Assembly (NCBI RefSeq): GCF_023718305.1
Contig: NZ_QEYO01000021.1
Location: 1 to 64,000 of the forward strand
Length of the DNA stretch: 64,000 nt
DNA from: Gramella sp. AN32
Lineage (GTDB): Bacteria; Bacteroidota; Bacteroidia; Flavobacteriales; Flavobacteriaceae
Direction of reading: 5' to 3'
The notes below the pieces were generated by a model. The model was not told the DNA's origin. It ran no database searches and saw nothing but the letters and a program-made list of their open reading frames with translations. Position 1 is the first letter of the stretch. The number at the start of each line of letters is the position of its first letter. The translations under genes and the position numbers were made by a program. Shown here piece after piece: positions 3,658-63,628 of the stretch.

Positions 3658-5238
3658 ATGAATAAGAGGCTTTTTGTTCTTCTCGTAGTTCTTATGAGTT
3701 TGTCGCTTATAGGAATTATTTTCGTACAGGGATACTGGATTAAAAGCAGTATCGACGATAAAGAGGAGCAGTTTTCCTACAGAGCCAAGCAGGCCTTATT
3801 AGATGTTTCAGAAGAAATTCAAAATAGGGAATTTGAAAATTATTATTTTCAATTAAACAATCCTGATAGTACCAATAGTAAGTTGAGCAACGTGACGGTT
3901 ACGCAATATTTATTTGCCGGTATAGATAAAGATCAAAACGAAGTCTATTATAATTCTGAAACTATTTTAGAAGAAGATTATAAGGTTTCCTCAGGTTTCT
4001 TACAGTTTGCAAAAGACAGTATTCAGTTTACCAAAATGATCAATAAAAGGGTAAGCGATATTGTACGAAAAAACAGGCTGGATGCGGGGGATAATTTAAG
4101 TGCCAGGCAGCGAATTGAGCATATTGAACGCCTGTCCAGGATGGAAGAAGTTGAAAAGGAGATTTTACGTTCTGCTATTTCTGAATTCATGGTAAGGTTA
4201 CCGGTGAATAAAAGGACTTCAGAAGAAGAAATTGTTGAATTACTGGCGGAGGAATTAGATAAACAGAAGCTTGATCCTACCTTCGAATTCGGAGTTTATA
4301 ATAATGGCATCGCTACAAATTTGCATTCAGATAATTTTAGTTTAAGTCATCCTGCAACATATTCGGTCCCGCTTTTTAAGGACGTGGCGGGTAATAATGG
4401 ATATAGTTTGTTGATAAACCTTTCGAACAAAAAAGAAGAGGTATTATCATCTGTTGTTCTAATGGCCAGTTTGAGTATGGTCTTTACGCTGATTATTGTT
4501 GTAGCCTATTCCAGTGCGCTTTCGCAATTAATAAAACAGAGACAGATTAGTCAGATAAAAACTGATTTTATCAATAACATGACCCACGAGTTCAAAACTC
4601 CTATAGCGACTATAAACCTGGCTTTGGATGCGATTAAAAATCCGAAGATTATTTCAGATCAGGAAAAGGTGTCGCGGTATTTGCAAATGATAAGGGATGA
4701 GAATAAGCGGATGCACGGGCAGGTAGAAAATGTATTAAGGATTTCAAGACTGGAAAAAAATCAGCTTGATCTTAAAAAGGAAAGATATCATTTACACGAT
4801 CTAATTGAAGATGCTATTTCCCATGTGGAATTAATTGTTGAAGATCGTGGAGGCTATATACAAACTCATTTTGGAGCATTAAAATCTTCAATTTTGGCCA
4901 ATGAAGATCATTTTACCAATGTTTTGGTGAATATCATGGACAATGCGGTAAAGTATTCCGAAGAGACGCCTAAAATTGATATTTATACCTCAAACGTAAA
5001 AGATTATATCTTCTGCGAAATTCGGGATCAGGGAGTAGGAATGAACAAACAGGTTCAGAAAAAAATATTTGAAAAATTTTACCGGGAACATACCGGGGAT
5101 ATCCACAATGTTAAAGGTCATGGTTTAGGCTTAGCCTACGCACGCCAGATCATTGAAGACCATCACGGAGCAATTACCGTAACCAGTGAAAAAGGGAAAG
5201 GAAGTACTTTCACAATTAAACTACCACTAATATCTTAA
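3658..5238 (+). CDS. Sensor histidine kinase, RprX-like
   Basis: Membrane sensor of a two-component system. Residues about 4-26 form the first transmembrane helix and about 265-288 the second, bounding a roughly 235-residue periplasmic domain with many charged residues. The HisKA box NNMTHEFKTPIAT places the phosphoacceptor at His310. The ATPase domain follows, with the N-box near 425 (NIMDNAVKYS), DQGVGM near 457 and GHGLGLAYA near 487. The 526-residue length and direct coupling to an OmpR-type regulator match the RprX/RprY pair of Bacteroidota. The stimulus is not visible in the sequence. Confidence 0.9.
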   Translation: MNKRLFVLLVVLMSLSLIGIIFVQGYWIKSSIDDKEEQFSYRAKQALLDVSEEIQNREFENYYFQLNNPDSTNSKLSNVTVTQYLFAGIDKDQNEVYYNSETILEEDYKVSSGFLQFAKDSIQFTKMINKRVSDIVRKNRLDAGDNLSARQRIEHIERLSRMEEVEKEILRSAISEFMVRLPVNKRTSEEEIVELLAEELDKQKLDPTFEFGVYNNGIATNLHSDNFSLSHPATYSVPLFKDVAGNNGYSLLINLSNKKEEVLSSVVLMASLSMVFTLIIVVAYSSALSQLIKQRQISQIKTDFINNMTHEFKTPIATINLALDAIKNPKIISDQEKVSRYLQMIRDENKRMHGQVENVLRISRLEKNQLDLKKERYHLHDLIEDAISHVELIVEDRGGYIQTHFGALKSSILANEDHFTNVLVNIMDNAVKYSEETPKIDIYTSNVKDYIFCEIRDQGVGMNKQVQKKIFEKFYREHTGDIHNVKGHGLGLAYARQIIEDHHGAITVTSEKGKGSTFTIKLPLIS

Positions 5239-5242
5239 ATAT

Positions 5243-5965
5243 ATGGAAACTGAGAACAAGAAAATTTTACTAGTAGAAGATGACCCAAATTTTGGTACCG
5301 TCTTAAAAGATTACCTCGCCATGAATGAGTATGAAGTCACTCATGCAAAAAATGGAATGGAAGGATTCGAAAAGTTCAAAAAAGATGATTTCGATCTTTG
5401 TATCCTAGATGTGATGATGCCTTATAAGGACGGATTCACTCTGGCGAAAGAGATTCGCGAAAAAAATGAAGAAGTGCCAATTATTTTCTTAACTGCTAAA
5501 GCCATGAAAGAAGATGTATTGAAGGGCTATAAAGTAGGGGCAGATGATTACCTGAACAAGCCTTTTGATAGTGAGGTGCTTTTAATGAAAATAAAAGCTA
5601 TCATGCAACGAAAAGCGACAGACAGCGTTGCAGACAGCAAACAATTTGAATTTGAAATTGGTGGTTTTCACCTGAACTCAAAGTTGAGATTCCTAACTTT
5701 TAATGATGAGGAACCTCAAAAATTATCTCCAAAAGAAAATGAGTTGCTTAGATTACTGGCGCTACATGAAAATGATTTAATGCCCAGGGAATTAGCATTA
5801 ACTAAGATTTGGAGGGATGATAACTATTTTACTTCCAGAAGTATGGATGTGTACATTGCCAAATTAAGAAAATATCTTAAAAAGGATGTAAATGTGGAAA
5901 TCCTGAATATTCACGGAGAAGGTTTCCGGCTTGTGATTAAAAACAAGGAAGAAGGAGCCGCATAA
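5243..5965 (+). CDS. OmpR-family response regulator, RprY-like
   Basis: Receiver domain at residues 7-120 with acidic pocket Glu12/Asp13, phosphoacceptor Asp56 in LCILDVMMP, and the conserved Lys in NKPFD near 106. It is followed by a winged-helix DNA-binding domain (about 137-232). It starts four bases after the kinase stop, so the two are co-transcribed and very likely cognate. A 13-bp hairpin terminator follows. In Bacteroides the homologous pair is called RprX/RprY; here that assignment rests on recognition of the sequence pattern only. Confidence 0.92.
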   Translation: METENKKILLVEDDPNFGTVLKDYLAMNEYEVTHAKNGMEGFEKFKKDDFDLCILDVMMPYKDGFTLAKEIREKNEEVPIIFLTAKAMKEDVLKGYKVGADDYLNKPFDSEVLLMKIKAIMQRKATDSVADSKQFEFEIGGFHLNSKLRFLTFNDEEPQKLSPKENELLRLLALHENDLMPRELALTKIWRDDNYFTSRSMDVYIAKLRKYLKKDVNVEILNIHGEGFRLVIKNKEEGAA

Positions 5966-5984
5966 ATAGTAAATCAGTTTCCAG

Positions 5985-6023
5985 AAAATCCCGCATCAGG
6001 GGGATTACCAGATGCGGGATTTT
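5985..6023 (+). terminator. Hairpin terminator after the response regulator
   Basis: A 13-bp perfect stem AAAATCCCGCATC (5985-5997) pairs with GATGCGGGATTTT (6011-6023) around a 13-base loop. It ends the kinase/regulator operon. Confidence 0.85.
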
Positions 6024-6123
6024 ATTATTCCCCTAATGTTTTATAATTTGCAATCTTAGCAATTTATTAAGACATGTTTTCCCACAATACTTATCTTTAC
6101 GGCGAACTCAATTCAGCCCCGTT

Positions 6124-9100
6124 TTGATAAATGTAGTAAGAATATGTGATTTTAAGGGCTCTCCTTCCCGGGAAGCCATCTTACTTCTTTCCTTTTTATT
6201 TCTTTTTATTTTTAGTGGATTCACGCAGGTTCCAAGTTATGATTGGCAATCTAAAGTTGACTTAAAAAATGTTGGCATTACAAATCCAGAGGATATCAAT
6301 ATTGCCATAGCTTCCGGACCACAAAATTTCGTATATGTGCTAACTTTTGGCAGCGGCGTGCAAAAGAGGAATGCTGATGGAAGTTCCGTTTCAAACAATT
6401 TTATTACTGGTTTAGACAGTCCTCTGGATATTGCTGTTGATAGGGAAGGTCTAATTTATATTGCCGATTTTCAGGCTGGGGGAGATACTTTTGCAGATAA
6501 TGGTCAGATAAAAGTCTATAATAGTAATGGAGTTTACCAAAGGTCTATTCTTACTTCCTATTTTCGACCTATGGGAATAGATGTAGATGAGCAATATGTT
6601 TATATAGCTGAGTACAATGATGGGAAGCAGGGGCCAGAAAGAACTCCTTCAAGTAGGATTAGGATTGTAGATAAAATAACTGGTACTGAAGTTAAAGTAA
6701 ATAATAATGTCACTATTCCTTATCGCATTACGGTAAATTCCACTGGGAAGGTTTTTGTGAGTCAGGCGGGAAACTCTAATTCCAGTGTTCAAATCTATAA
6801 TGAGGACTTAGTGAATCAGGGTTCACTTGCCAATATCCAATCTCCTGGAAGTTTGGTTGTAGATGCTTTCGATTATTTACACGTCGTCGAATATGCCGGA
6901 CAGGTGAATTTTGAAGAATTTATTGCGCTTTCTACGAATTTTGATTTCGGGGATTTATTACAATTATCTCATGATATTTATGACGGGATTAAGGATAATG
7001 CCTTTAGTATTAAAGTATTCGATCCCAGTTTAAACTATAAATTTCAGATAAAGGATAAAATTGATTTTCCAATTGATCTGGCTTTCAATAATTGTGACAA
7101 ATTATATGTGGATAATTCAACCGTTTTCGGAACCCATATTGAAAATTTTATAGCACATACTTTTTTCCCTTCCAGATTGGAATTCGATCTCGAAATCTAC
7201 CAAAGAACCCCGGCCTTTGATACTGAAGCTCCTGTGGTTTCCTGTCCTGCAGATATTACGGCCACCGCGGAGGCAGGAAATAATTTTGCCATTGTAACTT
7301 TTCAGGACGCTACTGCAACCGATGCCAATAATTTCACCATTAAACAAACGGGTGGATTATCCAGTGGGAGCCAGTTTCCCGCTGGTGAAACGAGCATCGT
7401 AGAATTCACCGCAACGGATATTTGTGGAAATGAAAGTAGCTGTACATTTACAATTACAGTAAACCCTTCCGATGAAGAGGAAAATAATCCACCAGTTTTT
7501 ATAGACTGTCCCTCTTCAGGTATTATGGTAAATAACGATCCTGGTATATGTGGGGCTATGGTTAATTTTGCTACTCCCCAGGTTACTGATGACGGTGCTT
7601 CTTTTACCCCTGAAAGAACGGACAATTCCGGATTAAATTCTGGTGATCTTTTTCCAATTGGAGAAACAACAATTACCTATCAGGCAGATGATGGCGTTAA
7701 TGAGCCTGTAATTTGCAGTTTTAAGGTTATCGTAAATGATAGCGAAAAACCAAAAATAGAGTGTCCGGGTGATATAAACGAAAGCGTTGCCTTTGGAGAA
7801 TCTGGAAAAATCATTACCTATGGTATGCCCACATTCTCTGACAATTGCGGAAATGCCACCATAACTCAAATCGCAGGTTTGGCAAGTGGGAAAGAGTTTC
7901 CCGTGGGAACAACTACTAATACCTTCACCGTAGACGACGGAAATGGAAATAGCATCAGCTGTAGTTTTAAGGTGACCATCACAGAGGAGGAAAAACCTTT
8001 CAGTTTTGAATGTCCCGGTGATCAAACAAATTCTTTCGATCAAAATTGTCAATTCGAGTTACCAGATTTTACCGCCGCATTAAAAGAAGAATATCCAGAG
8101 GCAGAGTTTTCACAAACTCCTTCTCCAGGGGCGATAGTTTTTCAGAGTACAGATATTACAATTTCCGGAGTGCAAAACGAAGAGCAGTTTTCCTGTACTT
8201 TCTTTATACTTATAAGTGATACTTCAAAACCACAAATAAACTGTCCTGCAGATAAGATAGCAACTTTTGACCCTGACCAAGGATTTACAGTTCCCGATTA
8301 TAGTAATGAATTAGTGCTTTCTGATAATTGTGCCCCTACAGCAGAATTAAGCGATAATGTGAGCCAGTCACCTGCACCGGGTGAAGTTATATATGATAGT
8401 CAGCAGGTTTCTTTTATCGTAAATGATGATGCCGGGAATACCGCAAATTGTAGTTTTCAGCTAAGCTTGGAGGAAGAAGATCAGTCCCAGGAACCAGAAG
8501 CAAAATGTAATGATACCGAAATCAATTTAGATGCGGAAGGCGAAGCAGTCTTAGTGGCAACGCAGGTTTATCAGGGCAATCCTGAAGAAGACAATGTCAT
8601 GCTTAGCATAGACAAAGAAAATTTTGATTGTAGTGACCTTGGCAATGTAAATACGGTAACCTTAACAGTGACTGATAGGGATTCCGGTTTGTCCTCTACC
8701 TGTACTGCTTCGGTTAGGGTAGTAGATAATCAACCTCCCATAGTTGCATGTGGTGAAGATATTACTGAGTTTTATTTGGAAGATGGAACTTTAAAAATAG
8801 AAACATCAGATTTAAATTTCCAGGCTTCAGATAATTGTCAAATTGCTGAATCTTTTGTCGTTCCCAATACATTTACTTCCGCAGGAATCAAGACTATAGA
8901 AATATTCGTTCGGGACACAAGCGGGAATGAAAATAGCTGCGTGACCTCGATTGAGGTTTTGGATGAAGAAATTCCTTTTACCTGTAAAAATTCGCTTTCC
9001 CTTGCTTTAAATGAAAATAATGCATATACCCTGCAACCGGAACAATTAATCAATCAATCCGGAAACCTTTCTGGATATACTTTTTCACTGGATCGTGACC

Positions 9101-10992
9101 TTCTTAATTGCGAGGATGTAGGTGAATTGGTGCCCATCACTTTAAACTATACAAGCACCTCCAATTCAGGTTCCTGTGTGGTCATGATCGATGTTTTAGA
9201 TATCGTTTACCCGGAATTCACGCAATGCCCGGCAGAAATTATTGAAATCACGCTGGATGAAGGCGAAACAGGGATTGTATTTGAAATTCCGGAACTTATG
9301 GCCACTGATAATTGCGAGGTTTTTATTACCCAAACTATGGGCCCCCCAGCAGGAACCGAGCTGCCTATTGGCACAACCAATTACCAGTTTACGGCTAAAG
9401 ATAGAACGGCGAATACCGCTACCTGTGATTTTCAGGTAAAAGTAATAGGCGGGGAGGAACCGTCTGAATTTGCTCTAGATTGTCCGCAACGCGAATATGT
9501 AATTAAGGCTGATGAAAATTGCGGATATTATGTTCCTGATTTTTCTGAAATTCTCAATTATACTCCTTCTAACGTGAGCATAGAACAGTCTATCGCTAGT
9601 GGTTCTCAAATTACTGAAGAAGTCCAGATATTTATAACTGCGAGTTTTAATGGGGAGACTGATACCTGTAATTTTACGCTGGTGCCTATAGATAATACTC
9701 CACCAGAAAGCAATTGTCCTGAAGATAAAGTGGTTTTTGCGAATGAAGATGGAACATTTACTATTCCCGACTATCGAAACGAACTTAATGCGGCAGATAA
9801 TTGTGGCCTTGGAGAAATCATTCAGCAACCTGCCGTAAATACTGTGATTAATGAAGACACCGTCATTAGCTTTTTAGTTTTTGATGTAGCCGGGAATGCA
9901 AGCTCCTGTAATTTTAATCTAAGCCTGCAAATCGATGAGCCCGGGAATGACGCACCTATAGGAATTAATGATCAATATCAAACCCAGATAAACACAGCCT
10001 TAGAAATTTCCGCAGGAAATGGCGTATTGGCTAATGATTCAGATCCTGAAAATGATTATTTAACAGCCATCTTAATTACAGATGTGAACTTTGGAACACT
10101 CACTTTAAATAGCGATGGTTCTTTTAACTATCAGCCAAATGAAAATTTTCAGGGAGAGGATACTTTTACGTATGTGGCTAATGATGGAGTTGAGAATTCT
10201 GAACCCATCCTGGTGAGCATTCTTGTAGTGGAGAATAATACAGGAGATTTTGAATGTTATTCGGAAGTAAGTTTTAATCTTGATGAAAATGGTGAATTCA
10301 GGGCCTTCCCTGCAAGCTTTTATTCCGGGAATGGGGAAGCTTATGAATTTGAGGCCAGTAAATTGCTTTTTACCTGTGATGATATTGGTGTACAAACGAT
10401 TACTTTAAATTATAGCGGGCCTGAATCGGGTTCCTGTGATATTATTGTGAATGTGGGAGATAATTTTGATCCTACTCTCTTACTCCGGGATATCACGCTC
10501 ACGCTCGATGCTGGAGGGAGCGCGGTCTTAAATATTGAAGATATCGACCTTGGTTCTTATGATAACTGTAATGGTACAGTGAGGTTAAGCCTGGGAAAAG
10601 ACGAATTTAACTGTAAAGATATCGGGGAAAATAACGTTGAGGTCACGGGTGTGGATAGCAATGGAAATACGGCCACTCAAACTATTACGGTTACGGTAGT
10701 TGCTTCTGAATTTTCCTGCCAGACGGCCCCGCCAAATCCTTCAGGAATAGATTATGTATTTGTATACCCAAATCCTAATTCCGGAAGTTTTAGAGTGTAT
10801 GCGCCGGCTATAGTTAGCATCAAACAAATTGAAGTTTATGATCACCGCGGAAGATTTATCCGTTTGAAATCTTTTGAATCTACAGATCGGAATTATCAGA
10901 TGAATTTAGGACCATTGCAGGAAGCCGTGTATGTACTTAAAATTGTGACCGAAAAAGAAGAGATCATCAGAAGGATTATTATTAAGAATTAA
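6124..10992 (+). CDS. Giant secreted NHL/HYR-repeat protein with type IX sorting domain
   Basis: A 1622-residue exported protein. A hydrophobic signal sequence ends near FSGFTQ (about residue 36). Residues about 40-340 hold NHL/beta-propeller-like repeats (DREGLIYIADFQ, DEQYVYIAEY). From about 370 on there are roughly ten HYR/Ig-like modules, each opening with a pattern such as CPADI and containing DNC and a GTT(N/T) strand; many paired cysteines. About 1275-1367 is a cadherin/VCBS-like module (NGVLANDSDPENDY). The last 80 residues (YVFVYPNPNSGSF to the end) are a type A T9SS C-terminal domain. Start is TTG. The 3' end overlaps miaA by 11 bases. Likely a cell-surface adhesin or scaffold; the ligand is unknown. 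Confidence 0.88.
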   Translation: MINVVRICDFKGSPSREAILLLSFLFLFIFSGFTQVPSYDWQSKVDLKNVGITNPEDINIAIASGPQNFVYVLTFGSGVQKRNADGSSVSNNFITGLDSPLDIAVDREGLIYIADFQAGGDTFADNGQIKVYNSNGVYQRSILTSYFRPMGIDVDEQYVYIAEYNDGKQGPERTPSSRIRIVDKITGTEVKVNNNVTIPYRITVNSTGKVFVSQAGNSNSSVQIYNEDLVNQGSLANIQSPGSLVVDAFDYLHVVEYAGQVNFEEFIALSTNFDFGDLLQLSHDIYDGIKDNAFSIKVFDPSLNYKFQIKDKIDFPIDLAFNNCDKLYVDNSTVFGTHIENFIAHTFFPSRLEFDLEIYQRTPAFDTEAPVVSCPADITATAEAGNNFAIVTFQDATATDANNFTIKQTGGLSSGSQFPAGETSIVEFTATDICGNESSCTFTITVNPSDEEENNPPVFIDCPSSGIMVNNDPGICGAMVNFATPQVTDDGASFTPERTDNSGLNSGDLFPIGETTITYQADDGVNEPVICSFKVIVNDSEKPKIECPGDINESVAFGESGKIITYGMPTFSDNCGNATITQIAGLASGKEFPVGTTTNTFTVDDGNGNSISCSFKVTITEEEKPFSFECPGDQTNSFDQNCQFELPDFTAALKEEYPEAEFSQTPSPGAIVFQSTDITISGVQNEEQFSCTFFILISDTSKPQINCPADKIATFDPDQGFTVPDYSNELVLSDNCAPTAELSDNVSQSPAPGEVIYDSQQVSFIVNDDAGNTANCSFQLSLEEEDQSQEPEAKCNDTEINLDAEGEAVLVATQVYQGNPEEDNVMLSIDKENFDCSDLGNVNTVTLTVTDRDSGLSSTCTASVRVVDNQPPIVACGEDITEFYLEDGTLKIETSDLNFQASDNCQIAESFVVPNTFTSAGIKTIEIFVRDTSGNENSCVTSIEVLDEEIPFTCKNSLSLALNENNAYTLQPEQLINQSGNLSGYTFSLDRDLLNCEDVGELVPITLNYTSTSNSGSCVVMIDVLDIVYPEFTQCPAEIIEITLDEGETGIVFEIPELMATDNCEVFITQTMGPPAGTELPIGTTNYQFTAKDRTANTATCDFQVKVIGGEEPSEFALDCPQREYVIKADENCGYYVPDFSEILNYTPSNVSIEQSIASGSQITEEVQIFITASFNGETDTCNFTLVPIDNTPPESNCPEDKVVFANEDGTFTIPDYRNELNAADNCGLGEIIQQPAVNTVINEDTVISFLVFDVAGNASSCNFNLSLQIDEPGNDAPIGINDQYQTQINTALEISAGNGVLANDSDPENDYLTAILITDVNFGTLTLNSDGSFNYQPNENFQGEDTFTYVANDGVENSEPILVSILVVENNTGDFECYSEVSFNLDENGEFRAFPASFYSGNGEAYEFEASKLLFTCDDIGVQTITLNYSGPESGSCDIIVNVGDNFDPTLLLRDITLTLDAGGSAVLNIEDIDLGSYDNCNGTVRLSLGKDEFNCKDIGENNVEVTGVDSNGNTATQTITVTVVASEFSCQTAPPNPSGIDYVFVYPNPNSGSFRVYAPAIVSIKQIEVYDHRGRFIRLKSFESTDRNYQMNLGPLQEAVYVLKIVTEKEEIIRRIIIKN

Positions 10993-30276: not shown

Positions 30277-31218
30277 ATGAAAAAATTAAAATTTCTGATA
30301 CTGATATTAATCGGAATCATCTCATATAGCTGTCAGGATGATCCTTGGGAGGATATAGAATCTGGTGACTGGAATAACGAAAGAAGTATTATTTCAATTA
30401 AGTTTCAGAACCAGGTAGGACAACCAGTTATTGAGAGAATTAATGAAGAAACTGGACAAATTGAACTTTCTATTAATGGAGATGCTGTTGAGGATTTAAG
30501 TTCTATAAATTTAACAGAACTTGTATTATCATATGGAGCGACCTCAAATATTAAAGAAGGTGAAAGTCTTAATTTTGAAAATTCGGACAATACGGCAGTC
30601 CTAACAGTTACATCGCAAAATGGAAAAAAGCGGGATTATACCATTAAGGTTAATTCATTCAGTGAAACCATTTTAGGTAGATATGAAATCGATAAACTGG
30701 TATTGTATGGAGGGACAGGACCCGAATATGGAGGAGGAGCTGTGTTGGATTTAACATCTAAACCATGGATATGGCCTGAAACACAAGGGCCTCAGGCTGA
30801 ACTTGATAATTATCTTGTTTTTGAATTAGGAGGAATTACGGCGGAAGGAAATACATATGGTACGGTAACTAATTATGCCGGACCAGATGAAACATACGCT
30901 GATTTCCAGTTCGTTCTCGATCCTGTAACAGATGTAAACAATTTTTATAGAAAAATACCGAAAGGTGAAGCAGAGTGGATGAGAGACTATAATACAGGTA
31001 CTATTACTTTTACCTTCACCGATGGTCGTACTACCACAGGAACTATAGAATCAGCGGGTACAGTAGATCTCGGTAACGGATTGAGTAAAACTATAGAGAA
31101 TATGGCTTTTGTTTTCAATTTAAACGGAACTGACGACTGGGACAATATTTATTCTGATTTTGATAAGTTCGTCAAGCGTCCAAGAAGATATTGGATTGAA
31201 GTCACGAAAACAGAATAA
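30277..31218 (+). CDS. Surface glycan-binding lipoprotein (SusE/F position)
   Basis: A 313-residue predicted lipoprotein (lipobox around SYSC, Cys20). Residues about 35-125 resemble the DUF5018-like beta domain of Bacteroidota PUL proteins (ISIKFQNQVGQPVIERI to DYTIKVNSF); the remaining beta-rich part holds aromatic residues suitable for sugar binding (WIWPE, RRYWIEV). There is no enzymatic motif. Sixteen bases after susD and before the hydrolases, it occupies the place of a surface glycan-binding protein; ligand is inferred as beta-mannan. Confidence 0.72.
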   Translation: MKKLKFLILILIGIISYSCQDDPWEDIESGDWNNERSIISIKFQNQVGQPVIERINEETGQIELSINGDAVEDLSSINLTELVLSYGATSNIKEGESLNFENSDNTAVLTVTSQNGKKRDYTIKVNSFSETILGRYEIDKLVLYGGTGPEYGGGAVLDLTSKPWIWPETQGPQAELDNYLVFELGGITAEGNTYGTVTNYAGPDETYADFQFVLDPVTDVNNFYRKIPKGEAEWMRDYNTGTITFTFTDGRTTTGTIESAGTVDLGNGLSKTIENMAFVFNLNGTDDWDNIYSDFDKFVKRPRRYWIEVTKTE

Positions 31219-31224
31219 TTAGTA

Positions 31225-32703
31225 ATGAAATATTCCTGGTTGTCTTATATAACATTCAGTTTAAGTTTGATTTTAGCCTCCATTAGTAGCAGTTGTATGG
31301 CACAAGCTGATGCAACTGTTACTGTTGAAGGAAATATTATTACACTTGAAAATTATTTAGGGAATGGCGTTCAATGGGATCCGTATCAAGTGGATTATGG
31401 TGAGGTAGAGCTAGAAATTTCCAAAACCGATTGGGATAAATTATATAGTCGCCTTGACTTTATGAAACCTCAGGTTGTTAGAGTAATGGTAAATACTACT
31501 TCATCCATCACTAATGATACATTAAATCCTTATAAGAAATTCAAGGATTTAAAACCGATACTGGATTATTGTCAGTCTCGCTCGGTAACTGTAACCTTTG
31601 GTGATTGGGGTGGGGGAATGGTGGATAGTGAGGCCAATACCATCAATGAGAAAAATTTGAAACATGCTGCTAAATATCTGGAGTTTTTAGTTAATACTAA
31701 GAATTATAACTGTATTAAATATTACAATCTAATAAATGAGCCGAACGGTTTTTGGTCTTCTACTGATGGTAATTACAATTTGTGGAAGAATGCAACGCAG
31801 TTTTTTTATAATGAATTGGAAGACCTGGATTTAGCTCATAAAGTAAAAATTATGGCTCCTGATATAGCAATTTGGAAAACGGATAAAATTGATTGGGTGA
31901 CTAAAAGTGCTGATGATCTTGAGGATGCTGTAGGTTTATATGATATTCACACATATCCGTCAAAAGCTACTGTGAATTCTGGAAGATACGAGAATATTAT
32001 ACGCTCATATAGAGAAGCAGCACCCAGGGATGTTCCGATGATCATGGGTGAAATCGGATTTAAATTCGTCGAACCAGAAGATTCTATTTACCAAAAAGAA
32101 AATATTCGCCGGGCTAAGGCAAAACCTTATGCATCTATAGAAGATTCTCAAATGTTTGTGTATGATTATAGTTATGGAATTGATATGGCTGATGCGCTTT
32201 TTCAAACAGTTAATGCTGGTTATGCAGGGTGTGTAGTATGGATGTTGGATGATGCTATGCATTCAAAAGAATCTCCTGATAAACTTAAGGTTTGGGGATT
32301 CTGGAATATTCTCGGTGAAGAGTATTTTGGCGATTCGGAAGAAGAAGTAAGACCCTGGTATTATGCATGGTCTTTACTCAGTAAATATATGCCGCAAGGG
32401 AGTAAGATCCTAAAAGTAGAAACGGCTGGTGACCCAGCAATTAAGGCTATAGCTTTAAAATATAAAGGTGCTTACACAATTGCAATAATTAATATCTCTG
32501 GTGAAAATAAAAAATTAGACCTAATGCCTTTGAATTATGAAGGAAAGAGCCTTTTTAAAAAATTTGTTTATGCAAACGGTCATCTAAATAAAGTAGGGGG
32601 TCATAGTTTGAAACCCAATGATGAGATAAACCTAGTGTTTTCTTCAGAAAACCAATTAGACGTTTCTGCTGAATCGTTGACAGTTTTAACTACCATTAAA
32701 TAA
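31225..32703 (+). CDS. Clan GH-A glycoside hydrolase of unclear family, paralogue A
   Basis: Exported 492-residue TIM-barrel glycosidase. The putative acid/base is Glu172 (NLINEPNGFWSS) and nucleophile Glu276 (IMGEIGF), the spacing expected of clan GH-A. The C-terminal ~110 residues look like a beta-sandwich. It is a clear paralogue of the protein at 36629-38203: shared words include RLDFM-P, VRV, NEPNG-WSS, YDYxYGxDMAD, LDDAMH and WNILGEE. I do not recognise the exact GH family; GH5- or GH39-like are possibilities. Genomic context points to beta-mannan or attached sugars. Confidence 0.72.
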   Translation: MKYSWLSYITFSLSLILASISSSCMAQADATVTVEGNIITLENYLGNGVQWDPYQVDYGEVELEISKTDWDKLYSRLDFMKPQVVRVMVNTTSSITNDTLNPYKKFKDLKPILDYCQSRSVTVTFGDWGGGMVDSEANTINEKNLKHAAKYLEFLVNTKNYNCIKYYNLINEPNGFWSSTDGNYNLWKNATQFFYNELEDLDLAHKVKIMAPDIAIWKTDKIDWVTKSADDLEDAVGLYDIHTYPSKATVNSGRYENIIRSYREAAPRDVPMIMGEIGFKFVEPEDSIYQKENIRRAKAKPYASIEDSQMFVYDYSYGIDMADALFQTVNAGYAGCVVWMLDDAMHSKESPDKLKVWGFWNILGEEYFGDSEEEVRPWYYAWSLLSKYMPQGSKILKVETAGDPAIKAIALKYKGAYTIAIINISGENKKLDLMPLNYEGKSLFKKFVYANGHLNKVGGHSLKPNDEINLVFSSENQLDVSAESLTVLTTIK

Positions 32704-32709
32704 TATTCT

Positions 32710-33915
32710 ATGAAAATGAAAACGAGAATGAATTGGCTGATTTTATTACTATTTACTATTATTAGTTGTTCTGAAGAATCTCCCGAAGTAAATGAAACTG
32801 ATGGTGAGACAGGAGAAGAAATCGAAGATACTACTTTAAGCCTGGTCGATTCAAAAGCTACTGAAGATACAAAAGCATTGTACGCCAATTTATGGGAGGT
32901 TCAACAAAGCGGTACTATGTTTGGTCATCACGATGATTTAATATATGGACGTAACTGGTATACCGAAAATGGGCGGTCTGATATAAAAGATGTGGTCGGT
33001 GATTATCCAGCTGTCTTTAGTGTAGATGTTGCAGAAATCATGGACGACAGAAGCAATGGGTCAGACTTAAATGATGACAGAATTCGAACAATTAAAGAAG
33101 CACGTTCAAGGGGAGAGGTAATCATTGCAAATATGCATCTAAATAATCCTTTAACCGGGGGAGACTCTTGGGATAACTCCAGTAATATAGTCGCTAAGGA
33201 AATTTTGACTGATGGGAGCACTACCCAGGTTAAATATGTAGGTTGGCTCGATAAGTTAGCAGAGTTTGCTAATAATCTTAAAGATAGTAATGGAGAATTA
33301 ATTCCAATAATATTCAGACCATTTCATGAACATACCCAAACGTGGTCATGGTGGGGTAGAAGTGCCACAACGCAAACTGAATTCGTACAGCTTTGGAAGT
33401 TTACCATTGATTACTTAAAAGATTCTAAGGATGTACATAATTTTATTTATGCTATATCTCCTCAATTAGATCAGGCTGGTTCTAAGGATAGCTTTCTGTT
33501 TCGTTGGCCTGGAGATGACTATGTTGATTTTATAGGTATGGACAGCTATCATGGTACCAATACATCAGCCTTTAGCACCAACCTACGGAATTTGACATTA
33601 TTATCACAGGAAAAAATGATGCCTTGTGGTGTTACTGAAACAGGTGTTGAAGGAATTCGCTACGCAGATGGAACTCCTATCGATGATTACTGGACAAACG
33701 AAATTGGAATACCGCTAGCTGGAAAGGAAATATCGATGATTGTTCTATGGCGAAATAAATATGATCCCGACCAAAATGGACATCATTACTTTGCTCCGTT
33801 TGAAGGAGAAGCTACGACAGAAAACTTCGTTGATTTTTATGAGATGTCTCATATACTATTCAGTAACGACTTACCGAATATGTACGGAATGCCTAATAAT
33901 ATAAAAGTAGAATAA
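32710..33915 (+). CDS. GH26 beta-mannanase, lipoprotein
   Basis: Endo-cleavage of beta-1,4-mannan at the cell surface. The signal peptide ends in ISC with Cys near 20, followed by an acidic linker. GH26 motifs are complete: GHHDDLIYGRNWY, the acid/base Glu207 in FRPFHEHTQTWSWWG, and the nucleophile Glu310 in GVTETGVEG. YVDFIGMDSYHG is also typical. About 401 residues. It is six bases behind the GH-A paralogue and one base before GH5-RICIN, in the same operon. Confidence 0.93.
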   Translation: MKMKTRMNWLILLLFTIISCSEESPEVNETDGETGEEIEDTTLSLVDSKATEDTKALYANLWEVQQSGTMFGHHDDLIYGRNWYTENGRSDIKDVVGDYPAVFSVDVAEIMDDRSNGSDLNDDRIRTIKEARSRGEVIIANMHLNNPLTGGDSWDNSSNIVAKEILTDGSTTQVKYVGWLDKLAEFANNLKDSNGELIPIIFRPFHEHTQTWSWWGRSATTQTEFVQLWKFTIDYLKDSKDVHNFIYAISPQLDQAGSKDSFLFRWPGDDYVDFIGMDSYHGTNTSAFSTNLRNLTLLSQEKMMPCGVTETGVEGIRYADGTPIDDYWTNEIGIPLAGKEISMIVLWRNKYDPDQNGHHYFAPFEGEATTENFVDFYEMSHILFSNDLPNMYGMPNNIKVE

Positions 33916-58591: not shown

Positions 58592-58969
58592 CTAGATTTC
58601 AATCACGTAGGTTGTTATCGATTTTATTGTAACACCCTTTGCTCCTTTAAATTTGTAAAAATCTGAGAAAGCATATTTTTTCCCATTTTTCAATTCTATA
58701 ATTCCATTTACCGCGCCTTCTTTACCGTGCGATAATATTTGATCAATTATCAATTCTTTGGCTTGTTCGGATTTAAGTCTCTCCAATTCTTGTGAAAATT
58801 GTTCTTTACCTTCAATTCTTAGTTTTCCAATGATATTCCAAACAATTTCATCGGTGACGCTTTCGGATATAAATTTTAAGTCACCTTTTGCAAAAGCAAT
58901 ATTGAAATTTTTTAAAAATTCCATTTTTGGAGAGTTTCCACAACTAGGAGTTGAAACTATGTTGGTCAT
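58592..58969 (-). CDS. NTF2/SnoaL-like small protein
   Basis: A 125-residue alpha+beta cone-fold protein: MEFLKNFNIAFAKGDLKFISESVTDEIVWNIIG at the N-terminal half and YAFSDFYKFKGAKGVTIKSITTYVIEI at the end. These proteins can be small isomerases or ligand-binding domains. Two eroded copies of its C-terminal segment occur in the neighbouring spacers. Confidence 0.85.
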   Translation of the reverse strand: MTNIVSTPSCGNSPKMEFLKNFNIAFAKGDLKFISESVTDEIVWNIIGKLRIEGKEQFSQELERLKSEQAKELIIDQILSHGKEGAVNGIIELKNGKKYAFSDFYKFKGAKGVTIKSITTYVIEI

Positions 58970-58982
58970 TCTGCTTTTAAAT

Positions 58983-59054
58983 TTAATACCCTTTCTTTAC
59001 TAGTCTTTTTGAAATACACCAATAATTACCACTAGGATCAAATATTCTAAATGG
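58983..59054 (-). pseudogene. C-terminal remnant of a VOC-family gene
   Basis: A 23-codon open tail, PFRIFDPSGNYWCISKRLVK and three more residues to TAA, is the characteristic VOC ending (F-DP-GN-W). An in-frame TGA stands immediately before it and the rest of the gene is gone. It lies between the NTF2-like gene and the AIPR gene. Confidence 0.6.
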
Positions 59055-59087
59055 TCAATATTTGAGATGAATCGCTGGTATATGGAG

Positions 59088-60938
59088 CTATTTGACATTT
59101 CTTGCATATTTCGCTATCCTTTTATCTAAATCTGTTTTTCTTACAGCACTAGGAATAGATTCTTTCTTGTTACCTGCAAAACTTTTCATAACCTTTTCAA
59201 AATTATCTAATGCATTCTTGAAATGAATATCTAGATTATCCTCTAATTCCTTCTTAATATAACTTTCCTTTTTAATTAAACCCTTTTCGCTATAATCCTT
59301 TTTTACGACAGAGCTCAGAAGAAAACAACCTAAATGAAATTTACCCTAGGAAAGTAGTGTTTTCCTATAATTATCTATCTCATTTTCTGCTCTGAATTTT
59401 TTAATAGCTTTATTTAATGAAAGATCAATTAAAATAGGAATATAGTATAAAAGGTAATTCATTGACTTAACATTCGGAGCAGGAAATACGTCGTCATAGG
59501 TAGATACAAACATCATTTTTGGACGAGTTTTTACTTGTGAAGGCTTCATTAAGATTTGTGAAGTGAATAGTTGAAATAATTTCTGAATACTATAGATATT
59601 CTTCTTGCCTTTATTTCTTAATTCATTGATTCTTCTTTCGTAAGCAACGCCATAATCTTCTAAGAATTTTTCAATAAGTTTCTGAATATCATCGTTAGCT
59701 TTCAATGAAAACGCCTTGATAGGTGTTTGGGAATTGGTTGTTTCTGTAATTCGGTATATTAGATCCTCATTATTGGTTTCAATTATTTTTACTAATAGAC
59801 TAGTATCCTCATTAAATTGTAAAACCTCCTTTTTAGTCAATTCCTCCGTTTCTTTTTTGTTTAAGGATCCATTAGCTTTTTTTTCTAAAAGTTCTGTGAT
59901 TCTTTCTTTATTTTTTAATGAACTATATATTGCATTTGAAGTTTGACAGCCATTAACAATTTGTAAGTTGTGCAACTTATATTTATTATTAGGCAGTTCC
60001 TCAACCTTGCTACAGGTCATAGTTAATCCGTTATTATAGCTCCAAAAGTATTTAGCTTCTTCTTCACTAGAACTAGTTTCAATAATTTTAGAGTTTAAAT
60101 CACTTCGTTTGAAATAATCACGAATATTTGCTTCGAAAATAGATGATTGATGTTTCTTAACTAATTCAGCAATTTCTTTACCACTGATAATGCTTATATA
60201 GCCATTCAGCTTATTCTTTTTGTCTGTGTCAGTTATATATTTAAAGGTTTTTTCATATTCTATAATATCAATAATAAATTGATGTTTTGAAGGTCCTTTT
60301 ATCAATGATTCACAATCAGTTATTTTGCAAGCAGAGGTCGTATATCCATTATTTTTCAATATTTTCTCTATACCTTCAATTTCATCCGTTAGAATTTTTT
60401 CAGAGTGTATATTACTCTCGATTCCACCGAACACAATATGGCTTATTACATGAATATTTTCAGCGGGAAATTTACTAAAAAGTTTAGACTTTATTTCATT
60501 TAGCGCTAGCATTCGATTATAGAAGTACAAATTATCCTCATCAGATATATCTTCATCGATGAGAACTTTTTCAATTCCTTTTTTAAATTTTAATAGATCA
60601 GCTTGAGATATACCAGTTCCTCTTTTAAATTGAAAAATATGTATTTTAAATTTTGTATCCTCGTTGTAGTCGTCTAATTCTTCAGGTTGTTCAATGAAAT
60701 CATTGGAAGCAGTAATATATATTGCATCAATTCCAAAATCATATTTTGTTCCTCTATACGAACTATCTACTATTCCTTGCTCAATCTCTTCGATATCTTT
60801 ATCTCTAAAAATATTAGTTAGAGCGAATAACATAAATTCAGATCCTTTTAATATGTCTCCTTTTTTGTCAGATAGGTAGTCTGAAAAATTTTCGACACTT
60901 TTTTCAATGCTTTTTTCTAGTACTTTGAATATGCTCAT
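59088..60938 (-). pseudogene. AIPR-family abortive-infection protein, interrupted by in-frame TAG
   Basis: The uninterrupted part (59346-60938) encodes 530 residues. Residues about 50-107 look like a PD-(D/E)xK nuclease core (Asp71 in YDFGIDAIYI, then HIFQFKRG with Gln103 and Lys105). Residues about 240-500 carry the AIPR core (NNGLTMTCSKVE, LQIVNGCQTSNAIY, ETTNSQTPIKAF). The frame is closed by TAG at 59346-59348, but the same frame then stays open for 85 codons to a second TAG at 59088-59090, with Lys/Glu-rich coding-like sequence beginning GKFHLGCFLLSSVVKKDY. A full product would be about 616 residues, the usual AIPR length. Either a nonsense mutation or readthrough; the shorter protein may still be made. 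Last gene of the defence-like cluster. Confidence 0.75.
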
Positions 60939-60951
60939 AATTTAAATAATT

Positions 60952-60973
60952 GGATATAACTCGTTTTACCACC
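60952..60973. promoter_or_regulatory. Quasi-palindromic motif upstream of the AIPR gene
   Basis: GGATATAACTCGTTTTACC begins at 60952, 14 bases before the AIPR start. It is the same motif, in opposite orientation, as GGATATAACGAGTTACC upstream of the 234-residue gene (63251-63271). Could be a regulator site, an mRNA hairpin or a recombination scar. Confidence 0.45.
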
Positions 60974-60979
60974 AGGCGA

Positions 60980-62509
60980 CTATTTCTTATACTCATCTCG
61001 GAGGCCAATAAAATCTATCGGAACAATTGGTTTATTTATTTCTTTTTTTCGTTCTTCCAAATTAATTGCTATTGCTAGGTATATCATACTAGCTCTAACT
61101 AATTTAATTAAGTTTAATGTTTTCTTCTCAAATTCCTCTCGGTTTATAGCATAAGTAAGATTTTCATCTAATAATCCATTTTCTCCAAACTCTATAATTT
61201 TGAATGACTTATGTTCTATGAAGTTTCTAATTTTAGCTAATTCTTTGGCTTCAGGTTCAATGGTTGAAGAAAAGGTCGCATCTTTTTCAAAGAAGTCTCT
61301 ACTTAACCAATACAGACCTCTTAATGGCCAATTTTGAGTTTGATTAATTTTTGGGTTCATTTTAGAAGTCTTTATTTTTTTATCATAAACAGTCCAAATA
61401 CTTCTAAAGGATACTTTTTCGGGTTTAAATCCTAGATCTAAATAATCGTTTAATAAGTAACCGATTTTATCTAGGATAGAATAGCACATTCTAAAAGCAA
61501 TTTTTGTTTTTTCACTATTGTAGGAATAAATAGCAAAATCTAAGGTGTCCAGTTGTAAATTATCTTTATCCGCGTAATATGTTTCTTTTTGATTCAGGCC
61601 TTCAAATAGTAAATGTCTTGCAGACACAAATTCTTGCTTTATTTGATTAAAAATTGTCTGATAAATTGGAGTTTTATCAAATTTTAAAGTCATAGTCGGA
61701 AGTAAAAGACAATCGTGACCAGCTATATTTTCTGTAGTAATATCATTTAATGGATTTAAAAATAAGTGATTTTTTAAACACCATTTTCTGTATTTAATTT
61801 CTTCTTCACTTTCTCCCAGGGAAAAGTTTTTTAAATCTTGAATGTTATTTAGGTCTTCTTTGTCTATAAAGGACTCAATAATATTAATTATGTCCTGAAA
61901 TGCAGATTTCGCTTCCTCGTAAATATCAGTATCTAATGTTCTTATTAAGTATTTATGTGCGAATTGAAAAAATAAAAATTGATGACCACTATCGTAGAGA
62001 GTTTTAGCATAATGAAAAAGTCCAAATCCTATATTTCCAAAAGCCATTGGAAAAGATGAATCTATATTTAATACTTTCTTCCAATATAACTGAGCTTCTG
62101 AGAATCTCCCCAATTGACTAAACACGTTCCCTAAATTCGTAAGTATTTCACATGTTTTAATTATATTCTGGCTCTTATGAGAATATGAAAGGGCTAATCG
62201 TAGATTTATTATTTGTTGATCAAGTTCTTTTTGACTAAAAAGCCAAAATTGATCTGAATTTAATTCTTCTGTCAACCGTTGGAAATAGGACCATCCATTT
62301 GCAACATTATAATGGAAAACCATTTTGTCATCGTCCGAGAAGTTTTCTAGATTTTGATCTTCGGCAAATCTAAGTCCTTTTCGAATGATTTTGACATTTT
62401 CTGATTGCCTTCCTGTTTCAAAAAAAATAGCAAGAATATTTGGAATCTGGCTAGTTTCAAAATCATTAAGGTCTGTTAAGTTTAATATTTCTTCTAAAGT
62501 TAAATTCAC
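60980..62509 (-). CDS. TPR protein with C-terminal HEPN domain (LA2681-like)
   Basis: A 509-residue protein. Residues about 60-220 form helical TPR-like repeats (NIIKTCEILTNLGNVFSQLG, RFSEAQLYWKKVLNIDSSFP). The C-terminal half is helical and contains KIRNFIEHKSF, a HEPN Rx4H catalytic motif with Arg428 and His433; the surrounding AYRALRGLYWLSRDFF-like GLYWLSRDFF resembles the LA2681 HEPN type. HEPN proteins with this motif are commonly metal-independent RNases acting in phage defence or toxin systems. Start is GTG. It lies 41 bases upstream of AIPR and 30 bases downstream of the HEPN-like gene, in one operon. Confidence 0.8.
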   Translation of the reverse strand: MNLTLEEILNLTDLNDFETSQIPNILAIFFETGRQSENVKIIRKGLRFAEDQNLENFSDDDKMVFHYNVANGWSYFQRLTEELNSDQFWLFSQKELDQQIINLRLALSYSHKSQNIIKTCEILTNLGNVFSQLGRFSEAQLYWKKVLNIDSSFPMAFGNIGFGLFHYAKTLYDSGHQFLFFQFAHKYLIRTLDTDIYEEAKSAFQDIINIIESFIDKEDLNNIQDLKNFSLGESEEEIKYRKWCLKNHLFLNPLNDITTENIAGHDCLLLPTMTLKFDKTPIYQTIFNQIKQEFVSARHLLFEGLNQKETYYADKDNLQLDTLDFAIYSYNSEKTKIAFRMCYSILDKIGYLLNDYLDLGFKPEKVSFRSIWTVYDKKIKTSKMNPKINQTQNWPLRGLYWLSRDFFEKDATFSSTIEPEAKELAKIRNFIEHKSFKIIEFGENGLLDENLTYAINREEFEKKTLNLIKLVRASMIYLAIAINLEERKKEINKPIVPIDFIGLRDEYKK

Positions 62510-62539
62510 AATTTATCGGAGGTTGGTGGTATCTTTTAC

Positions 62540-63244
62540 CTACCGTTTTTGTTGCCAAACTAAATTTATTTTATCTAATAACTGATCAATCTTATCATAT
62601 GTGAGTAAGTTATCTCTTAAAATCCTTTCTGATATTCCCACATAATGTTCTTCGGTATTTGGGGGCTTTATTTTTAAAATCGGATCAAAATCTGGATATA
62701 GGAATGAAAGAATTCCGTGGGTATAGCTGTCTCTATCATTTATATAGCCATCAAATAATTTACTGAAATCATTCCTTTTTTCTCCATCTTCTAATTCTTC
62801 AAATTGCTCAAATTCTTTGTCTGTTTTTATTATACAGCTAAATACATTTCTTAATTCCCCAAATGTTAGATCTTTCTGAAAATTATACTTTTTTAAATCT
62901 TTACATTTTTTATTTCTTTCCAGAATTTCTTCAATCTTATTGTTTGCTAAATATAAGGCGATAGTCCTTTTAAGTTTATCATTTATTAATTCTGCTAATC
63001 TGTTTAGTTTTCCAATACTATAGGTTATTCGATTGAACTTTTCATAGATATTCTTATCCAACATCTTTTGATCAATTGGTAATATTGGTTTTTCTACATC
63101 ATTATTTGAATCTAACTTAATTAGAGTAGGAGCGATATAAATATCAACTAATTCGTCTTTATCATATAATTTTTTTGGAAGAAAAATTTCTGCTTTTAAA
63201 TCAGCTTTCTTTAAATCTATTTTGAATGGTCGCGAAATTTTCAT
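62540..63244 (-). CDS. Uncharacterised protein with a HEPN-like Rx4H motif
   Basis: A 234-residue, mostly helical acidic/basic protein. I do not recognise a named family. Near residue 171 it has NDRDSYTHGIL, matching the HEPN catalytic pattern R-D-x3-H (Arg171, His176), in a helical context. The N-terminal third is beta/coil-rich (FKIDLKKADLKAEIFLPKK). First large gene of the cluster, downstream of an XRE-like gene by 135 bases. It could be a second RNase or a modulator partner of the TPR-HEPN protein. Confidence 0.65.
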   Translation of the reverse strand: MKISRPFKIDLKKADLKAEIFLPKKLYDKDELVDIYIAPTLIKLDSNNDVEKPILPIDQKMLDKNIYEKFNRITYSIGKLNRLAELINDKLKRTIALYLANNKIEEILERNKKCKDLKKYNFQKDLTFGELRNVFSCIIKTDKEFEQFEELEDGEKRNDFSKLFDGYINDRDSYTHGILSFLYPDFDPILKIKPPNTEEHYVGISERILRDNLLTYDKIDQLLDKINLVWQQKR

Positions 63245-63250
63245 AAAAAT

Positions 63251-63290
63251 GGTAGGTAACTCGTTATATCCATAGCAATATAACTCTTTA
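63251..63290. promoter_or_regulatory. Inverted repeats upstream of the HEPN-like gene
   Basis: On the plus strand GGTAGGTAACTCGTTATATC is followed by CATAGCA and ATATAAC; GTTATAT (63263-63269) and ATATAAC (63278-63284) are perfect 7-base inverted arms with an 8-base spacer. The block is 7-40 bases upstream of the 63244 start, where promoter or operator elements would lie. Confidence 0.5.
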
Positions 63291-63379
63291 CTCTAAAATA
63301 AACTACGGACAAACGTAATTGGGATTGAAGCGATGATTAAAAAGTACGGTGAATTGGAGAGGTAGTAAAAGATAAGTTC

Positions 63380-63628
63380 TTATTTTTCGAACTTAACTTC
63401 AGGAAACATTTTATCAACCTCTTGGAAGAAATGAGATAAATTCATGCTTTCAGCTTCGCAAATATTTTCTATGGTTTCTAAGCTAGTCCTATAGCTTTTT
63501 CGATCTTTAATAAGCCGGACGGTTTTTTCATCTATATTATGGTTTTTTGCAAATTCACTGTTATTAGTGATTTTACTAATCCATTTTTCATATATAAACT
63601 CAACTATTTTACTATTCCGGTCAACCAT
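63380..63628 (-). CDS. Small XRE-like helix-turn-helix regulator
   Basis: An 82-residue protein with an HTH at about residues 22-67: SEFAKNHNIDEKTVRLIKDR as helices 2-3, then SLETIENICEAESMNLSHFF, the usual ending of short Bacteroidota XRE proteins. It is the first gene on the minus strand of the defence-like cluster, with a perfect 9-bp dyad 33 bases upstream of its ATG. It is probably autoregulatory and may repress the downstream toxins. Confidence 0.82.
   Translation of the reverse strand: MVDRNSKIVEFIYEKWISKITNNSEFAKNHNIDEKTVRLIKDRKSYRTSLETIENICEAESMNLSHFFQEVDKMFPEVKFEK

Follow-up and report, generated by a model that had tools for sequence, protein, structure and literature searches.

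Most likely, with a probability that we put at roughly three in four, a single nonsense substitution has broken an accessory AIPR/AbiU1 defense gene of Gramella sp. AN32, an ordinary loss of function. The gene lies in the 64,000-nt stretch of DNA analyzed here (hereafter, the window) and was probably acquired horizontally as an accessory gene. The interruption of its frame is real, and the features involved occupy exactly the positions given for the ORF and both stops in the initial annotation:

59346–60938, minus strand: AIPR/AbiU-type ORF in its present form (530 aa), from the ATG at 60938 to the internal TAG
59346–59348, minus strand: internal TAG, where each of the five close relatives encodes tyrosine
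59091–59345, minus strand: severed C-terminal tail of 85 codons, homologous to the C-termini of the relatives
59088–59090, minus strand: second TAG, at the position where five close relatives (617–618 aa) naturally end

The ORF body, the internal TAG, the 85 sense codons and the second TAG all share one frame. At the base composition of the window, 85 codons would stay open by chance with a probability of ~0.002, and the in-frame codon score of the tail (+0.19 bits per codon, vs +0.15 for the body) is positive, with negative scores in all five other frames of the same stretch. The description of these codons as coding-like is thus borne out by the codon scores together with the homology of the tail to the five relatives, and the joined length of about 616 residues expected at the outset was right, given the 617–618 residues of these proteins. 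An alignment with the five close relatives reveals no frameshift in the AIPR gene; the start Met is aligned in all six sequences, and their bodies differ in length only by one- or two-residue gaps. The gene therefore carries no damage other than the stop, as had been supposed: a single lesion in 616 codons of a frame whose body is well conserved. Re-initiation inside the tail was considered and rejected, the first in-frame start codon being found only at tail codon 53.

The full-length relatives, five in number, were found by a scan of genome contigs and are 79% (L008), 73% (L009), 70% (L010), 64% (L011) and 46% (L012) identical to the window copy; all five have tyrosine at the position of the TAG and continue through it to their natural ends. 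Aligned to these full-length homologs, as initially proposed, the tail matches the C-termini of all five, with 64, 61, 55, 53 and 35% identity, respectively. A wider alignment comprised 24 sequences, namely, the five close relatives and 19 of the 44 loci recovered from viral contigs with the five-sequence alignment as the query; a viral-contig scan with the single protein had given 41 candidate stretches, with no relative confirmed among them. Searches of plasmid and phage proteins yielded relatives with less than 60% identity, those listed (30 of 65 plasmid records) having 23–30%, and these were left out of the analysis of the tail. All 24 aligned relatives continue for 78–161 residues past the TAG column. 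This column is a gap in 18 of the 19 distant viral-contig relatives, so that conservation of the tyrosine is confined to the close ones. The initial annotation had named homologs that naturally end at the position of residue 530 as the finding that would speak against its reading; a search for them turned up none, either among the five close relatives or in the wider alignment. Because the relatives continue past the TAG with similar C-termini, the tail is, judging from the sequence comparison, the genuine conserved C-terminus of the gene. Homology continuing beyond a stop, as it does here, is also one of the marks by which pseudogenes are recognized.

The 530-aa ORF matches the Pfam family AIPR (PF10592) over residues 268–519 with 122.9 bits (cut-off, 25) and the PADLOC profile AbiU (PDLC02357) over profile positions 17–465 of 537 with 253.5 bits; in a genome search that reads through stops, the AbiU profile was matched over positions 17–531, with one TAG inside. 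Family membership is indicated both by the AIPR domain, which scores above the curated cut-off, and by the match along most of the AbiU profile. Like members of the AIPR/AbiU1 family, the window gene has this domain and, read to the second TAG, has the same length as its five close relatives, but differs from the family in that a TAG ends it after residue 530, at a position where all 24 aligned relatives lack a stop. In VIA-align comparisons, where best Z scores of 7–8 are common, the N-terminal part resembles FokI (Z 8.4, rmsd 3.5, 141 residues), MspJI (Z 6.9) and HamA (Z 6.7). Asp71, Gln103 and Lys105 of this part are invariant in the six close sequences, as would be expected of a PD-(D/E)XK nuclease. 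Because best scores of this size are common with the tool, the likeness is only a lead, and the N-terminal part may be a PD-(D/E)XK-like nuclease. The central part gave ParB-like matches (Z 5.0–5.5) and the C-terminal helices alone reached Z 3.4, both too weak for naming a fold, and a single SspE alignment spans residues 240–617 with an rmsd of 18.4. With the model of an intact relative, Foldseek returned no match at E ≤ 0.001, and the best E value in a sequence search of the PDB was 0.12. Speaking against a nuclease-like N-terminal part, PMC3506569 describes AIPR proteins as carrying an N-terminal HEPN domain.

What the stop removes can be gauged from a structure model of the intact relative L008, built with the 24-sequence alignment (mean pLDDT 83.8; pTM 0.56, which makes the placement of the domains uncertain). 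In this model, six helices lie past the position of the stop, with pLDDT values of 88–96 by blocks, and extend a helical C-terminal region that starts near residue 497. Severed by the TAG, these C-terminal helices would be absent from the translated product of the window gene. Hence, the loss of six confidently predicted helices suggests that the truncated product would be inactive or weakened as a defense protein. Under the reading that we favor, one nonsense substitution would have hit the tyrosine codon conserved among close relatives of the AIPR/AbiU1 gene. Translation would end at residue 530. The product would retain the N-terminal part, which resembles a restriction endonuclease, and the central AIPR domain, but without the six helices of the C-terminal bundle it would most likely be unstable, inactive or weakened; the severed tail would then drift. 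Such a loss is plausible where defense is costly or no longer selected.

Acceleration of the tail is seen in the branch lengths, for which the tail branches were scaled to the body branches and each of the six branches was tested. Compared with the expectation from the body, the tail branch of the window copy is longer by a factor of 2.4 (2ΔlnL 8.2, nominal p 0.004; p ~0.025 after correction for six branches); the tail of L012 deviates in the opposite direction (nominal p 0.03), and the other four branches do not deviate. The body of the window copy is not accelerated, its branch (0.126, vs 0.299 for the tail) being shorter than any of the other five terminal body branches. Two other comparisons speak against a real mutation that arose some time ago. 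Of 15 tail columns without variation among the other five sequences, 2 differ in the window copy, a count like that of the intact relatives (1–3 of 14–16, apart from the distant L012 with 13 of 26), and pairwise tail/body dN ratios are only slightly higher with the window copy (1.4–1.6) than without it (1.15–1.4), synonymous sites being saturated for most of the pairs compared. Because the tail evolves faster than the body predicts, the branch lengths mildly favor a real nonsense mutation, some time ago, over a sequencing error. A base-calling or assembly error, in which case the AIPR gene would be intact in the organism, would fit the presence of one lesion in an otherwise well-conserved frame, and the assembly is a draft of 56 contigs. 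An intact gene, however, would not be expected to show excess divergence of the tail. The preserved frame marks the change as a substitution rather than a change in homopolymer length, and the estimated genome completeness is 100, with a contamination of 0.57; we consider an error unlikely. There is no second lesion, so either the mutation is recent or the base call is an error.

The same branch lengths bear on the possibility that the 530-residue protein still works, the body remaining under selection and the dispensable tail drifting. A body branch that is the shortest of the six next to an accelerated tail branch is in line with this possibility, as is the retention of the nuclease-like and central parts. 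Yet, every one of the 24 aligned relatives has the tail, which is confidently folded in the model of the intact one, and the body would be equally conserved if the mutation were recent, so that a working truncated protein appears doubtful. Loss of function is our preferred reading of the stop also in the light of the tests for readthrough.

Readthrough of the TAG, whether low-level or regulated, would produce a functional full-length protein, and a frame that is otherwise undamaged is compatible with it. According to Belinky et al. 2021 (PMC7918605), bacteria tolerate many single in-frame stops in their genes by readthrough, and the window gene resembles the genes considered there in having one in-frame stop and no other damage; their focus, however, is on stops that two or more species have in common, whereas the window stop is seen in one genome, at a position where it is shared by none of the five close relatives. 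The RF1 gene (prfA) of this genome is intact (499 bits). None of its 41 tRNA matches (30 loci, nine more, the one in the window and one degenerate tRNA-Leu-like match, obtained with relaxed settings) has a CUA anticodon. The tRNA search scored 150 of 358 first-look candidates; hence, we added a direct pattern search for CUA tRNAs, which returned 8 places (vs 20 in a reversed control), none recognized as a CUA tRNA and two coinciding with tRNA genes of other anticodons. The possibility of an alternative genetic code was rejected because TAG is the terminal stop of 8 of the 48 window ORFs of at least 150 aa (with the AIPR ORF left out). Stimulatory RNA structure was not found after the TAG either, the 90 nt folding at −10.8 kcal/mol, vs a mean of −12.5 (sd 2.8) for 500 mononucleotide shuffles, and the tail is accelerated rather than extra-constrained. 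Programmed readthrough is unlikely because none of the 24 relatives share the stop, RF1 is intact, the searches revealed no CUA tRNA, TAG serves as an ordinary stop in the window and no RNA structure stands out; that readthrough of any kind supplies a functional protein seems very improbable. Readthrough at a low background level may occur, although no specific feature points to it. Thus, among the three causes initially offered for the interruption, a nonsense mutation agrees with the continuation of all 24 relatives past the stop, regulated readthrough found no support, and an error is mildly disfavored by the fast-evolving tail.

Other stop-interrupted genes of the family were sought, the count being limited to stops within the matched stretches, many of them partial. 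A search of 395 Bacteroidota genomes with the AbiU profile gave 54 matches, 5 of them flagged as containing a stop. The TAA flagged in G467 and G273 turned out to be the terminal stop of the ORF itself, and the flagged match in G288, a fragment at a contig edge, was set aside. True internal TAGs are present in the genome of the window (G000) and in G125, and this count of two is a lower bound, the matches often being partial. With the Pfam AIPR profile, 1 of 53 matches in 394 genomes holds a stop (G125); an order-level search of 395 genomes gave 20 matches, with only G467 and the window flagged, and a further search of 98 genomes gave 13, with only G125 flagged. The interrupted genes are too few for a comparison of TAG with TAA or TGA. 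With two internal stops among the AbiU matches, broken AIPR genes thus seem to turn up now and then, and the window case looks ordinary.

The AIPR gene of G125 (L026:1399–3081) is whole but for a TAG at 2314–2316, which sits at the Gln of an NGxQ motif, without variation across the 24-sequence alignment; the 43 tRNA matches of that genome include none for CUA. Such a second case in Bacteroidota also brings to mind a scenario in which the TAG is a gate, the defense gene being complete only where TAG is read as an amino acid: for instance, an infecting TAG-recoding phage would bring a suppressor tRNA, and its code change would arm the defense. The stops of the two genes, however, are at different places and are missing from near relatives, and two cases, one of them given beforehand, carry no statistical weight; we regard such a gate as extremely unlikely. 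With code-15 (TAG to Gln) phages, such as the crAss-like phages (PMC9523058), the window gene has in common the TAG codon and the phylum, Bacteroidota, but it is bacterial, contains one internal TAG and comes with no detected suppressor tRNA. Literature searches on stop-gated defense and on nonsense-inactivated defense genes turned up nothing on AIPR among the records listed.

For annotation, the implication of a nonsense mutation is that the tail belongs to the gene and that the 530-aa ORF should be marked as an interrupted AIPR/AbiU gene. A defense-system caller taking the locus as intact would overcount, because with PADLOC the truncated ORF scores much as the five intact relatives do (243–305 bits). 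The stop would have biological weight only if it proved to be conditionally read.

Two further ORFs precede the AIPR gene:

60980–62509, minus strand: LA2681-type HEPN gene with TPR-like repeats, 509 aa (HEPN_LA2681, 245.4 bits)
62540–63244, minus strand: 234-aa ORF upstream of the HEPN gene and co-directional with it, no Pfam family above cut-off

The HEPN gene is upstream of and co-directional with the AIPR gene, 41 bp before its start. Together with its neighbors (58592 to 63628), the AIPR gene has a GC content of 27–31% in a window of 36% GC. Among the 23 other genomes of the genus searched, there is no close copy of AIPR, only one distant AIPR (in G006), and no close copy of the HEPN neighbor, only one weak match (in G002). 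The low GC content and the lack of close copies in congeners fit an accessory gene. Beside the five relatives, for which few neighbors were scanned and two contigs are 3–4 kb, no HEPN partner was recognized by eye, and the neighboring ORFs look, mostly by eye, unrelated to those in the window; thus, AIPR looks like a stand-alone accessory defense gene. AIPR has been linked to DNA-modification systems, and the setting of the Fictibacillus relative (L012) agrees, its AIPR gene (5001–6851) adjoining DndA-like and DndD-like genes (6896–10393; 443 and 410 bits). In the Chryseobacterium MAG contig (L009), a TIR-domain ORF (6960–7661, plus strand, 64.5 bits) lies ~1.5 kb downstream of AIPR, suggesting another defense neighborhood. 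In the window, the ORFs at 62540, 60980 and 58592 and the AIPR gene (at both stops), all on the minus strand between 58592 and 63244, end in TAG, a run that is probably due to chance.

Elsewhere in the window, in-frame run-ons follow five ORFs, three of them long and two extending beyond the 900-base view; the stops concerned are four TAA and one TAG. Each of the five run-ons stops exactly where the following ORF in the list does, and that ORF has its own start codon, which speaks against split genes. In three cases, the flanking ORFs belong to different Pfam families; in the other two (30277–31218, 31225–32703 and 32710–33915), only the last ORF, of the latter two scanned, has a Pfam family, so that 30277–33915 could formally still contain a split gene. 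Past the window, contig C13 (64058–65951; L156:58–852 and 854–1951, both plus strand) encodes a sigma-70-like ORF, with sigma region 4 by Pfam, immediately followed by a Cas12f-like ORF of 365 aa (PADLOC Cas12f, 183 bits), a pair reminiscent of sigma-associated Cas12f-like RNA-guided transcription. Among the literature records listed for a sigma factor with Cas12f, none was clearly on this pairing. The ORFs that follow resemble, by eye, an RND efflux set, and, close to the end of the contig, a DUF5712 protein (368 bits) with a TraG/VirD4-type coupling protein behind it (L156:13050–15690, plus strand) suggests a mobilizable element. Finally, on contig C53 of the same genome (G000), a 41-bp portion of a tRNA-Arg(TCT) gene recurs without mismatch ~72 kb away from that gene (about 137254 and 209395–209468; L208 and L209), as an integrated element would leave behind.
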